A stretch of DNA of 39,724 nucleotides from Candidatus Nitrosomaritimum aestuariumsis (GTDB lineage Archaea; Thermoproteota; Nitrososphaeria; Nitrososphaerales; Nitrosopumilaceae). Positions 7,242 through 11,674 of the stretch are shown piece after piece (the first letter of the stretch is position 1; the number at the start of each line of letters is the position of its first letter). The stretch covers positions 1 through 39,724 of the forward strand of contig JACEMX010000172.1 in NCBI GenBank assembly GCA_013867335.1. The letters are read 5' to 3'. Position numbers and translations under genes: made by a program. The notes below the pieces were generated by a model that did no database searches, was not told the DNA's origin, and saw nothing but the letters and a program-made list of their open reading frames with translations.

Positions 7242-8057
7242 ATGTCAAGAATGAATCCACAAAACATGGAGTTGAAAATTGGCTGCACTGGATGGAGTTA
7301 TGATGGCTGGTCAGGCACGTTTTACCCCAAAAGAATGCCAAAAACTGAGTGGTTGCAATACTATTCAAAAATTTTTCCAATAACAGAGATAAACTCGACA
7401 TACTACAGAATCCCTGATCAAAGCATTACAAAAAAATGGAATACAGATACTCCAGATGAATTTTCTTTTACTGCAAAGTTTCCATCAATAATCACTCATG
7501 AAAATAAATTAAAAAACATAAAGGAGCATGTTTTCAAGTTTTTGGCATCCCTTACACCGATGTATGAAAAAGTTTTAGCATTAGTTTTACAGCTTCCACC
7601 GTCACTTTCATTTTCAGAGGCAAGACCAAGATTAGAAGAGTTGTTTTCCTACTTGCCTGAGGATTTCAAGTACCCAATTGAAGGCAGACACGAGTCATGG
7701 TTTACAGATGAAGCCATAGAATATCTCAAAGAAAAAAACCATTGTCTGGTGTGGAATGAAGTGCAGGGAGTTAACAATCCAGCAATAGTCACCTCAGATT
7801 ATGTGTACATACGATTAATTGGAGATAGAAGTATTCCAGAATCAAAATTTGGAAAAGTAATAGTCAATCGGGAAAAAGTAATTCAAAAGTGGTCAAATAA
7901 ACTAAAAGAGATTCAAGATAAAGTTAGCCTTGCAATGATTATGACAAACAATCATCTTGAAGGGTTTGGTCCATCAACTGCAAATACACTAAGAATGCAA
8001 TTAGGTTTAGAGGAATTGATATGGGATGAAAAAAAACAGAAGAAACTTGAATTCTAA
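7242..8057 (+). CDS. DUF72 (YecE-like) TIM-barrel protein
   Basis: A 271-aa protein with the family's N-terminal signature GCTGWSYDGWSG and the segment FPITEINSTYYRIP. Later come the PIEGRHESWF strand and a Y-V-Y-I-R-L-x-G-D strand, covering the whole DUF72 barrel. The family is widespread and structurally a TIM barrel, but its reaction is not established. The 3' end overlaps the convergent polymerase gene by 4 nt. The GAGGT block upstream supports this ATG; a second Met eight codons in is also possible. Confidence 0.9.
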   Translation: MSRMNPQNMELKIGCTGWSYDGWSGTFYPKRMPKTEWLQYYSKIFPITEINSTYYRIPDQSITKKWNTDTPDEFSFTAKFPSIITHENKLKNIKEHVFKFLASLTPMYEKVLALVLQLPPSLSFSEARPRLEELFSYLPEDFKYPIEGRHESWFTDEAIEYLKEKNHCLVWNEVQGVNNPAIVTSDYVYIRLIGDRSIPESKFGKVIVNREKVIQKWSNKLKEIQDKVSLAMIMTNNHLEGFGPSTANTLRMQLGLEELIWDEKKQKKLEF

Positions 8058-10213
8058 TTTTCAAACGGCTCAAGTATAGACTTGCAACACTCTTCAAGTA
8101 GTTCAGAGTATTTTTTTGCATCATATTTTTTTGCAAATTCTATTGGTTCCACACGATGGGATATTTTTCTAGAATAATCGCGTATCACGTAACGGATTTT
8201 TTGGCCTGGTTCAACAGTACGTCCCTCCCACTTTAGTTGGTTTAAGGCATCTGCCTGGATTGTGCGACCTTTGTGCTGCCCAGTTCCTCGCGTAACCCTA
8301 TTGGTAAATGCCAGGTCCTCAGGCAGTAATTTGTTCGTAAATAGATGTCCCTCATACTGCTTTTGGATATTTTTTGCCTCAGAAATAGAGTCTTTAATCT
8401 CAGAAATGGTGTTACATTTTGCAAATAAATTCAGAATGTCTTTTTGGCACTGCTTGAAAAATTTTGGAGTGTCCCGTCTCCGGGTTTCAATTCCACGTAG
8501 TTTTAGATTACCATTTTTGTTTGCTCCAAAGTATCTGTTTGCAACAGGCAAGTTAGAATTACTCTTTGAGGGTAAAAATACAATCCACTTGTATACATCC
8601 AAAGATAATTCAAATCCTGTTTTAGATGCAATTGTGTCACGTAATTCTTCATAGTCAGCAACAGTAGAATTTTTTTTATGTATCCATAATGAATCAACAA
8701 TGCCATGCAATACTGTAAAGTTTTTTTCTTCTGCTATTTTCATTGCATGTAATAATAATTGTCTGGCAAATGCACATACTGCCATATGTGCATCAATTCT
8801 TCCAAACTTTGCATTGTTAAATCCCAAATATCCAAAGGATGTGACTAAAATCCATTTTAATGCAGCCTTTCTTTGTGAATATATTTCAGATTGAGTTTTG
8901 TTTTTTGTAGTTTCAATTAGTTCGGTGTACTTTTTTCTCTTATCTAATAAGAGATTCAATGATTGTGGAACTATTCCTTTCCTTTTGCAAATATGATATC
9001 CAAGTTCTGGTACAATGCAAGTTGAATCAGGGCAACATTGGCAGTTTATCGTCTCAGCTGAAATATTTTTTTTCATCATTATATTTCCAAACAGAGATGC
9101 AAAATCAACTTCTCCAACATTTTCATGAGGTCCAATTTGCGGCTCCAAAATAAGACCACCTCGATCTCCAACCAGTAAATCCATTCTTGTTTTGAATATT
9201 TCTGATGCAATAGGCTTCCAAGGAATCAAGAGGTTTCGTTTTGTTGCATTATAGAACTGAACAGAGCTCATGCATTTTCCAATACTTGCCCTTGCTGCAA
9301 TTTGGATTGGGAGTCTGCAAGTTCGTGAAATCTCAAATATTGCCTGAAGTGATTGTTCAGTCTCCCACAAGAATGCATTTGAGCGATCAATGTGAATCCT
9401 GCCTAATAATTGCGTAGAAGTAGGCTTGAAATGAATCTGACCGTATGAAAAATATGACATTCCCCTTGTTTTTGGAATCAAAAGCGGACTGTCTTCTTTT
9501 CCCAAAACTAGCTTGTCAGGAATCTTGTTTTTTTCTGCCCTAAAGGCAAGAAAAGGAAAGTCCCAAGAATCACCTTTTTTTGTAATTATAAAATCAGGGT
9601 CAATGTCTTTTATCATCCGTACACAATCAAGAATCATTTGTTCTTCTGAATCAGATTCTAAAACAACATCGTTGATTTGAATTGATTTTATGCTATCAGT
9701 AAACTTTGGAATTTTTCCAGTGGGTTCTGCATTTACTTGTAAATTAATTTTTGTAAATGAAGGTAATTTGTAATTTGTTTCAGCAATGTCTGATTGTGGA
9801 ATCCATTTTTTATCAAGATCATATTTGCCAAGAGGAAACAAGTCATTTTCATACATGAATGTTTGGGCAGGAGGGACATCCACATTATACAATCTATACA
9901 CTCCAAATTCATCCAAGCCTTCAATTATTTTTCCTAATTTTAAAAGATCAAAAGAATTTTTCAGAGATAGTTTCAGAACCGTAGATTCGTTAAGATCATA
10001 TGCTTTTTCTATTTTCTTTGTCCATTCGTGATTTTTTATTAAAGATTTAATCTGAGAGTTTTTCCATAGTTTGTCTAACTTGTATCTAGTGTTAGATGCA
10101 ACATATACTGAAGGAGTCCAGTTTATTTCTATTCGATGTGTTTTTTTATTTTTAATCCATAAAATGATTTTATCATTTAATGGATAAACATCAAAAAGCC
10201 ATCCAGATATCAT
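8054..10213 (-). CDS. Divergent family-B DNA polymerase
   Basis: A 719-aa protein, shorter than typical archaeal PolB (~780-900). Motif A is VDFASLFGNI (Asp370). The archaeal Cys cluster is at 391-409, followed by R426. Motif B is K453-W-I-L-V-T-S-F-G-Y, with Thr where Asn is usual. Motif C is HGIVDS (Asp507), where the first Asp of DTD has become Val-preceded Ile. The KG/RRD thumb-side motif follows. The two metal-binding Asp remain, so activity is plausible. In the N-terminal exonuclease region, Exo I looks degraded (VNAE instead of DIE), while an Exo II-like DFPFLAFRA survives. Proofreading is therefore doubtful, which suggests an error-tolerant or repair polymerase. The ATG overlaps the stop of the preceding small gene (ATGA). 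Confidence 0.85.
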   Translation of the reverse strand: MISGWLFDVYPLNDKIILWIKNKKTHRIEINWTPSVYVASNTRYKLDKLWKNSQIKSLIKNHEWTKKIEKAYDLNESTVLKLSLKNSFDLLKLGKIIEGLDEFGVYRLYNVDVPPAQTFMYENDLFPLGKYDLDKKWIPQSDIAETNYKLPSFTKINLQVNAEPTGKIPKFTDSIKSIQINDVVLESDSEEQMILDCVRMIKDIDPDFIITKKGDSWDFPFLAFRAEKNKIPDKLVLGKEDSPLLIPKTRGMSYFSYGQIHFKPTSTQLLGRIHIDRSNAFLWETEQSLQAIFEISRTCRLPIQIAARASIGKCMSSVQFYNATKRNLLIPWKPIASEIFKTRMDLLVGDRGGLILEPQIGPHENVGEVDFASLFGNIMMKKNISAETINCQCCPDSTCIVPELGYHICKRKGIVPQSLNLLLDKRKKYTELIETTKNKTQSEIYSQRKAALKWILVTSFGYLGFNNAKFGRIDAHMAVCAFARQLLLHAMKIAEEKNFTVLHGIVDSLWIHKKNSTVADYEELRDTIASKTGFELSLDVYKWIVFLPSKSNSNLPVANRYFGANKNGNLKLRGIETRRRDTPKFFKQCQKDILNLFAKCNTISEIKDSISEAKNIQKQYEGHLFTNKLLPEDLAFTNRVTRGTGQHKGRTIQADALNQLKWEGRTVEPGQKIRYVIRDYSRKISHRVEPIEFAKKYDAKKYSELLEECCKSILEPFEN

Positions 10214-10443
10214 TTTTTGTTGAGTAAGAATTGTATCATTTGATGTTGTATGAGAATCAAAGACATCATCAATGAAGACGTTGTGTAGGGAGAGCCTTTG
10301 GAGTTAATTGCTTTGATGTAGCGATAACATTGCCGAAGCATTTTGTTGAAGAGTTTTCTGTCTTCTGCACGAAGACTATCTCCAAATGCTTTCCAAGATT
10401 CTATCTCCTTTGAGAGGATATCATCGTCTGGAAATAGGCTCAG
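10210..10443 (-). CDS. 77-aa protein, CTG start, paralogue of its upstream neighbour
   Basis: The frame is open from an in-frame TGA at 10450-10452 to the TGA that overlaps the polymerase ATG. It has no ATG, GTG or TTG in its first 30 codons. A CTG at 10441-10443 overlaps the upstream stop as CTGA and follows AGGTGA by six bases, matching the AGGTGA before the upstream paralogue. Read from CTG it is 77 aa. It aligns without gaps (offset 2) to the 79-aa protein upstream: shared W17, F20, L24, D28, L31, F32, Y42, A45, P52, S57, M60. No known family; mostly helical. A frameshifted two-domain gene is the alternative. Confidence 0.6.
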   Translation of the reverse strand: MSLFPDDDILSKEIESWKAFGDSLRAEDRKLFNKMLRQCYRYIKAINSKGSPYTTSSLMMSLILIQHQMIQFLLNKK

Positions 10444-10679
10444 TTTATCTCACCTAGGCCTAAAATCTGCTTGAAGTGATGAAAGATTATCGCCATAAAG
10501 ATAGACTCAAGCCTAATTGGCCTGCATGCCATCATGCATGCAGAAATGTATAGTCGAGCAGTAGCAAAAATGTCATCAAAAAGTTCTTTGTCTTTTTTAC
10601 AAAGAGATGAGCGAAATTTTTTCCATTTTTTTTCCTCATGGTACAATGCAATTCGAAATGAAGGAACGGTTCGACCCAA
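10440..10679 (-). CDS. 79-aa helical protein, tandem paralogue
   Basis: TTG start placed four bases after AGGTGA; the gene sits 8 nt after the RadA-like stop. It is basic and helical. Conserved positions shared with the following 77-aa protein are W19, F22, L26, D30, L33, F34, Y44, A47, P54, S59 and M62. I recognise no named family. Tight coupling to a RadA-like protein and a PolB suggests an accessory subunit in the same DNA transaction. Confidence 0.65.
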   Translation of the reverse strand: MGRTVPSFRIALYHEEKKWKKFRSSLCKKDKELFDDIFATARLYISACMMACRPIRLESIFMAIIFHHFKQILGLGEIN

Positions 10680-10687
10680 AAAATCAC

Positions 10688-11527
10688 CTAGTGAGAAGGA
10701 ATGATTTCCAAAGTATCTTCATCAAGTAGTATGGATTGATTTTTTCCTATGTCACTGAGATGTACGGACAACGAATGATAATTTTGCTTTATTTTGATGG
10801 TTCTTGAAAATAGTTGTAATAGCATTCCATCAAACTGAGTTGGCAGTCCAAGGGACACCACAACTAGACAGTTTTGAATACTTTTGAGAGATTTTACAAC
10901 TGTGCGCAGTATTTGCTCCATTTCTTGTGAGTTCAGATAAGGATCGTTTGTGAAAAAATTAAGTAGATGAGTAATTATCACAATTTTTGTATCAAATTGT
11001 TTTATTGTCTTTTGTAGATCATTTACAATTAGATTCGCAAGTTGGTATACAGTAAATGCCCTACAAGAAATTATTCCAGACAAGATTCTTTTTGCATCTA
11101 GCCCATATTGTTGTGCAAAATCAACGCATTGATACAAATCAGAGCTATTAGCACCATCAATTAACAGCACCTTAGAATCAAGACCACCATATCGGCAAGG
11201 AAGTTGTGCCCTAACACATAGCCTTTCTATTATTTTTTGAGTGTGAATTCCTGCAATGCAGATTTTTTGATTGAGGGTAAGAAAATGTAAAACAGAATCA
11301 ATTTGTTCAATATCAAATGTAAGTTTGGGCATGTCTGATGCTTTCTGAAATACAATGCTAGGAGGTTGTGTCTTGCGTTGCATTTTTCGTTGCTGTAATG
11401 AATCACTCAAGAGAGTACCACAAAAAGGGCAAGGCTCCATACTACGATTTAGAGAAATTTCAGAGTCTAACTCTTTGAGAACGTTGTTACAATGCCCGCA
11501 ATAATACTGAAGTAGCGTCTTATTCAC
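10688..11527 (-). CDS. Zinc-ribbon RecA/RadA-like protein with decayed P-loop
   Basis: A 279-aa protein starting at GTG. The N-terminal zinc ribbon has C10, C13, C33 and C36. From about residue 70 it follows the RadA/RadB core: KVLLIDGANS in place of the IDTE strand, then a Q-Y-G-L-D-A-K-R-I-L-S segment and helix R-A-F-T-V-Y-Q-L-A. The Walker A position reads AGIHTQKIIERL, without GKT, and the Walker B strand IVIITHLL lacks the Asp. It is therefore probably not an ATPase but an accessory paralogue that binds RadA or DNA. It heads the coupled operon leading to PolB. RecA-like partners of error-prone polymerases (bacterial ImuA) are a functional analogy only. Confidence 0.75.
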   Translation of the reverse strand: MNKTLLQYYCGHCNNVLKELDSEISLNRSMEPCPFCGTLLSDSLQQRKMQRKTQPPSIVFQKASDMPKLTFDIEQIDSVLHFLTLNQKICIAGIHTQKIIERLCVRAQLPCRYGGLDSKVLLIDGANSSDLYQCVDFAQQYGLDAKRILSGIISCRAFTVYQLANLIVNDLQKTIKQFDTKIVIITHLLNFFTNDPYLNSQEMEQILRTVVKSLKSIQNCLVVVSLGLPTQFDGMLLQLFSRTIKIKQNYHSLSVHLSDIGKNQSILLDEDTLEIIPSH

Positions 11528-11533
11528 TTGGTT

Positions 11534-11674
11534 TTATGCGTAAATTTGGCTTAATAGGGCAGGTAATGTCAGAATACCCCGATCAAAGTATGGTTTAAGA
11601 TATTTTTGTTCATTTGAACAACCTAGTTTTCTTATTTTTAAAAACCAATTACGATCATGGTTCTGACCTTTCAT
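11534..11674 (-). CDS. 46-aa basic protein before the RadA-like gene
   Basis: Reading from the ATG at 11674 gives a 46-residue basic protein ending 6 nt before the GTG of the RadA-like gene. The second half (YLKPYFDRGILTLPALLSQ) looks like real helical protein. A longer frame begins at 11752, but its extra N-terminus is Phe-rich and unlikely. It may be the first gene of the PolB operon. No family recognised. Confidence 0.45.
   Translation of the reverse strand: MKGQNHDRNWFLKIRKLGCSNEQKYLKPYFDRGILTLPALLSQIYA

Follow-up and report, generated by a model that had tools for sequence, protein, structure and literature searches.

The four-gene locus at positions 8054-11527 of the window (the whole 39,724-nucleotide stretch analyzed here) is very probably a PolB2 mutasome operon, encoding a polymerase without proofreading (PolB2), an inactive RadA-like protein (iRadA) and two small PPB2 proteins. 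This identity is based on the motifs and fold of PolB2, an iRadA that has lost its Walker motifs, a PPB2 pair with a single MGRT arm, the linkage of these genes across the class, five clusters of partner genes unlinked to their polymerase, and the literature. The operon is an ordinary member of a kind noted since 2014, here in a marine-type ammonia-oxidizing archaeon. Makarova et al. (2014; PMC4104785) drew attention to the operon of arCOG07300 (PPB2) with an inactive RadA, and the PolB2-iRadA-PPB2 complex, or "PolB2 mutasome," was modeled by Timinskas et al. (2025; PMC11791011), who read PolB2 operons as mutasomes and likened them to Pol V. The sequence-only reading had suggested a translesion module resembling ImuA-ImuB-DnaE2. 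PolB2 operons are interpreted in just this way in PMC11791011, and genetic and biochemical work on Sulfolobus PolB2 lends support (PMC7390963, PMC8764526), but the module itself was already known (PMC4104785). The basic discovery is already published, and what is added here is the class-wide anatomy and the details given below.

Operon layout and promoter region

All four genes are on the minus strand. The gene for iRadA (10688-11527, GTG start) encodes a RadA/Rad51 fold without Walker A or B, preceded by an N-terminal zinc ribbon. Its stop codon is separated by 8 nt from PPB2a (10440-10679, TTG start), which carries the MGRT arm and overlaps PPB2b (10210-10443) by 4 nt (CTGA), and PPB2b in turn shares 4 nt (ATGA) with PolB2 (8054-10213). 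The coordinates, order and spacing first read from the sequence are all exact. Since this arrangement recurs in most related loci, it is not due to chance. PPB2b is armless and arCOG07300-like, with the N-terminus (L)SLFPDDD. Its start codon is CTG in the window, whereas six relatives have TTG at this codon and further ones ATG or GTG, which supports the position of the start. The weakness of CTG as a start in the window copy counts against the mutasome reading. On the plus strand, a gene for a DUF72 family protein (7242-8057; Pfam DUF72, 7e-50) converges with polB2 and overlaps its end by 4 nt. The same arrangement is seen in L003, L004 and L005, and a DUF72 gene is also found near PolB2 copies that have no iRadA/PPB2 linkage (L019, L021, L022). 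DUF72 genes are known to be enriched near polB2 (PMC11791011).

About 57 nt directly 5' of iRadA (11528-11584) are kept in six same-genus loci, and the outer flanks are partly non-alignable. In transcriptional order this segment holds an imperfect dyad, GGTATT-CTGAC-ATTACC (11562-11578, minus strand), whose form is kept in same-genus loci, then a TATA-box-like CCTATTAAG (11550-11558, minus strand), kept in the six loci, and the GTG start about 25 nt further on. The dyad is a candidate operator, and at this distance from the GTG the TATA-like box would be expected to give a leaderless transcript. A similar dyad, GGTTAT-N6-ATTACC, accompanies a TATA box in another genus (L056), the only one of the more distant loci in which a dyad was evident on inspection by eye. 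The operon's own copy of GGGTATN7TWACC is the only one in the assembly, so no regulon is claimed. A conserved dyad beside the operon's TATA box is not mentioned in the published PolB2-mutasome papers searched.

The polymerase and its partners

PolB2 is a divergent B-family polymerase of 719 aa with a degenerate exonuclease domain. It matches Pfam DNA_pol_B (2.5e-26) and exo1 (9.5e-13), its AlphaFold model is a confident B-family fold (pLDDT 88.7), and the top Foldseek matches are polymerases of the KOD/9N/Pfu type (E~1e-39). The sole other B-family match in the assembly (1.46 Mb in 184 contigs) is a PolB1 with an intact YGDTDS. In the tree PolB2 stands apart from PolB1, whose clade has a support of 100/100; the tree is made of Nitrososphaeria sequences only, and placement as PolB2 leans on motif and operon evidence. 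A polymerase scan of the named genome collection returned only five close relatives, the nearest being from Nitrosopumilaceae. Asp370 (motif A), Lys453 (motif B) and Asp507 (motif C, LHGIVDSL) are kept and the first Asp of DTD is lost, exactly as first described; Ile505 stands in its place. Most archaeal PolB2s likewise have this Asp replaced and retain the motif C His and the second Asp. The claimed loss of an intact Exo I also holds, no Exo I DxE being found in PolB2. Compared to Pfu polymerase, about 40-42 residues are missing between the exo and palm domains, in the region of Exo III (residues 262-289 face Pfu 258-327).

The loss of the first DxD Asp and the degenerate exonuclease recall an older view, in which the polymerase has no catalytic activity and the operon, instead of synthesizing DNA, controls replication or the restart of forks. 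The 2014 paper inferred such an inactivation and proposed roles in repair or in replication regulation (PMC4104785). We consider this very improbable, as Asp370, Lys453 and Asp507 are invariant across the aligned class members, and Sulfolobus PolB2 (Dpo2), with identical Asp loss and His retention, does polymerize DNA: experiments show a lesion-bypass and mismatch extender devoid of exonuclease activity (PMC8764526). H503 and D507 are both invariant in the 20 class members aligned. In favor of the PolB2 mutasome, residues P331-W-K-P334, E338, K341 and D350-R-G-G353 are invariant in the class-wide alignment, and this 331-353 segment corresponds to the site of the iRadA- and PPB2-binding motifs in the published model (PMC11791011). 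It ends with the loop motif D350-R351-G352-G353, the D(K/R) motif near the active site; D(K/R)(A/G)G was absent from the nine PolB1 sequences in which it was sought. Some PolB2 mutasomes carry a C-terminal PCNA-binding motif on iRadA or PolB2. The C-terminal end of PolB2 here, CKSILEPFEN, is only loosely PCNA-motif-like, and that of iRadA, DEDTLEIIPSH, is without the canonical QxxLxxFF, both being read off alignments without a profile search. Separately, cysteines C391, C393, C394 and C409 of the palm region (8987-9043, residues 391-409) are invariant in 20 out of 20 aligned members and form a possible metal or disulfide site.

As a single sequence, iRadA matches Pfam Rad51 at 1.3e-10. Its AlphaFold model (pLDDT 89.6) retrieves Rad51/RadA with Foldseek (E~1e-15); the alignment behind these two results, A2, includes one genuine RadA row and hence a slight bias toward a RadA match, of which the single-sequence Pfam match is independent. 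When iRadA is aligned to genuine RadA, the Walker A motif GEFGSGKT faces GI---HTQK and a Thr lies opposite the Walker B Asp. The protein is therefore, as had been proposed, RadA-like with a zinc ribbon and without the Walker A Lys or the Walker B Asp. The ribbon (CxxC...CxxC), close to the N-terminus, is present in all fully read Nitrosopumilaceae copies and in many other class members of alignment A2, and is missing from some iRadAs (for example L026, L028, L033, L036, L041 and L055). The word zinc is absent from the main text of Timinskas et al. (PMC11791011), and no mention of an N-terminal iRadA ribbon was found in the published PolB2-mutasome papers searched.

The two small proteins, whose kinship the sequence-only reading had recognized, are indeed paralogues of about 78 residues (hhalign profile-profile probability 98.3%, E=1e-14), and neither has a significant family in Pfam or NCBIfam. 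The diagnostic MGRT N-terminal arm is found in PPB2a (MGRTVPSFRIAL) and in 22 of the 23 aligned PPB2a orthologs, with MDRT in the remaining one. One MGRT-bearing copy is also what is reported where PPB2 is duplicated (PMC11791011). The PPB2a/PPB2b pair is kept widely across the class, and this retention is not mentioned in the PolB2-mutasome papers searched. Natural fusions occur as well: in L026 (896-1477) a single ORF joins PPB2a to PPB2b through a low-complexity linker, and ORFs of about 220 residues contain both in L066 (1560-2234) and L068 (3021-3686).

Distribution across Nitrososphaeria

A class-wide search covered 300 genomes, and the loci were then read with profiles built for each component. 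Among the 53 main-clade PolB2 copies (window excluded), 38 have iRadA and/or PPB2 genes adjoining polB2, so the genes are not rare neighbors and the translesion reading stands. The order in linked loci is nearly always iRadA-PPB2a-PPB2b-PolB2, with iRadA in divergent orientation in L039. In five genomes of one genus, iRadA-PPB2a-PPB2b are clustered (L041, L042, L043, L045, L046) on a contig other than that of PolB2, which stands alone at L018-L022. No partner was detected alongside the polymerase in 10 of the 53 copies with the profiles used; these partners are possibly too divergent, and one copy is at a contig end.

Within Nitrosopumilaceae the operon is found in a small minority, complete PolB2 copies having been seen in the genus of the window and in G120, G152 and G218, three further genomes. 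One same-genus locus, L038 (1605-2633), has an intact iRadA and lacks PPB2a, PPB2b and most of PolB2: a 62-codon remnant of the PolB2 C-terminus comes directly 3' of the iRadA stop and is followed by DUF72; either the missing part was deleted naturally or the assembly is faulty here. This remnant genome and the patchiness in Nitrosopumilaceae indicate that the operon is dispensable, a point against the mutasome reading. Patchiness, together with a published tree that suggests frequent PolB2 transfer among archaea (PMC11791011), would also suit a selfish polymerase cassette, or one belonging to a mobile element, that does not serve host repair. Such an origin is considered most unlikely, because no integrase or hallmark mobile gene was recognized in a non-exhaustive reading of the window ORFs, the within-class tree groups PolB2 largely by family, and the DUF72 neighbor is kept across genomes. 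Nitrosopumilaceae PolB2s form one group in that tree, with a support of 100/99.

The class also holds a second, deeper PolB2 clade, in which most members (L078-L081, L083-L085) keep the first DxD Asp, motif C reading for example YADTDS, YGDTDS or YGDVDS. This agrees with the TACK origin of DxD-intact PolB2 sequences noted previously (PMC11791011). In L078-L082 and L084 the iRadA ORF runs on into a PPB2-like domain starting with MGRxTPSF. A genuine radA with an intact Walker A is also seen upstream of the cassette in several families (L078-L082, L085 and L053, where it spans 791-1792). It directly adjoins the cassette in L053 and L082, the distance to the iRadA ORF being about 4 nt in L053. The PolB2-mutasome papers searched make no mention of it.

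Proposed mechanism and related systems

By comparison with Sulfolobus work and published models, we infer damage tolerance, mutagenesis, polymerase activity and complex formation for the window's PolB2 mutasome; in the papers searched, no experiment on a Nitrososphaeria member was found, a point against the mutasome reading. A single leaderless transcript would be made from the TATA box, presumably upon damage. PolB2 would most likely extend primers past lesions following insertion of a base across from the damage, with iRadA and the PPB2 trimer bound to it. In the published model, iRadA would mimic the RadA-RadA filament contact via the PolB2 loop just before DRGG, and one arm of the trimer, here the MGRT arm of PPB2a, would insert among polymerase, iRadA and DNA (PMC11791011). 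As the armless PPB2b is widely kept and sometimes fused to PPB2a, the trimer may be a mix of both. A bolder and rather doubtful proposal is that Nitrososphaeria PPB2 is a heteromer, an asymmetric trimer with one arm-bearing PPB2a and armless PPB2b in which the division of labor of the arms is genetically encoded, and that the cassette is linked in function to the filament of active RadA, with iRadA perhaps derived from a radA like those upstream of the cassette in several lineages and perhaps docking the polymerase at the filament end. Mixed and pure trimers were modeled similarly well, but the most reliable published complexes contain arm-bearing copies only (PMC11791011), which counts against a mixed trimer.

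The PolB2 mutasome is documented in Nitrosopumilaceae, and its anatomy is shown class-wide in Nitrososphaeria. The paired PPB2 copies, the iRadA zinc ribbon and the linkage to radA offer simple tests of the control of a B-family polymerase by a RadA-like partner, and some Nitrososphaeria are cultivable.

The window operon resembles the published PolB2 mutasome in having all three components in the order iRadA-PPB2-PolB2, a single MGRT arm in the PPB2 pair, the loss of the first DxD Asp, the D(K/R) motif and the DUF72 neighbor. It differs by the zinc ribbon of iRadA and by the wide retention of the PPB2 pair in Nitrososphaeria, which is only occasional in the published set. With Sulfolobus Dpo2, PolB2 shares the motif C pattern (first Asp gone, His kept) and a non-intact exonuclease, but the host lineage differs and the activity of the window protein is predicted from homology. 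The Sulfolobus enzyme is damage-induced and required for damage-induced targeted mutagenesis (PMC7390963, PMC8764526). The E. coli Pol V mutasome (UmuC-UmuD'2-RecA) has a published architectural likeness, with a polymerase bound to a recombinase homologue and a small subunit whose N-terminal arm is inserted; however, it uses a Y-family polymerase and an active RecA, and not one component is orthologous. Finally, ImuA-ImuB-DnaE2 likewise associates an error-prone polymerase and a RecA-fold accessory protein in one operon, and the ImuA1 and ImuA2 groups are also without Walker motifs. The initial statement that the parts are unrelated in sequence is right for the polymerases, but not for iRadA and ImuA, which are both members of the RecA/RadA superfamily. 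DnaE2 is of the C-family and ImuB of the Y-family, and PPB2 is absent from that system, whereas family searches found neither a Y-family nor a C-family gene in the four-gene operon, whose polymerase is of the B-family.
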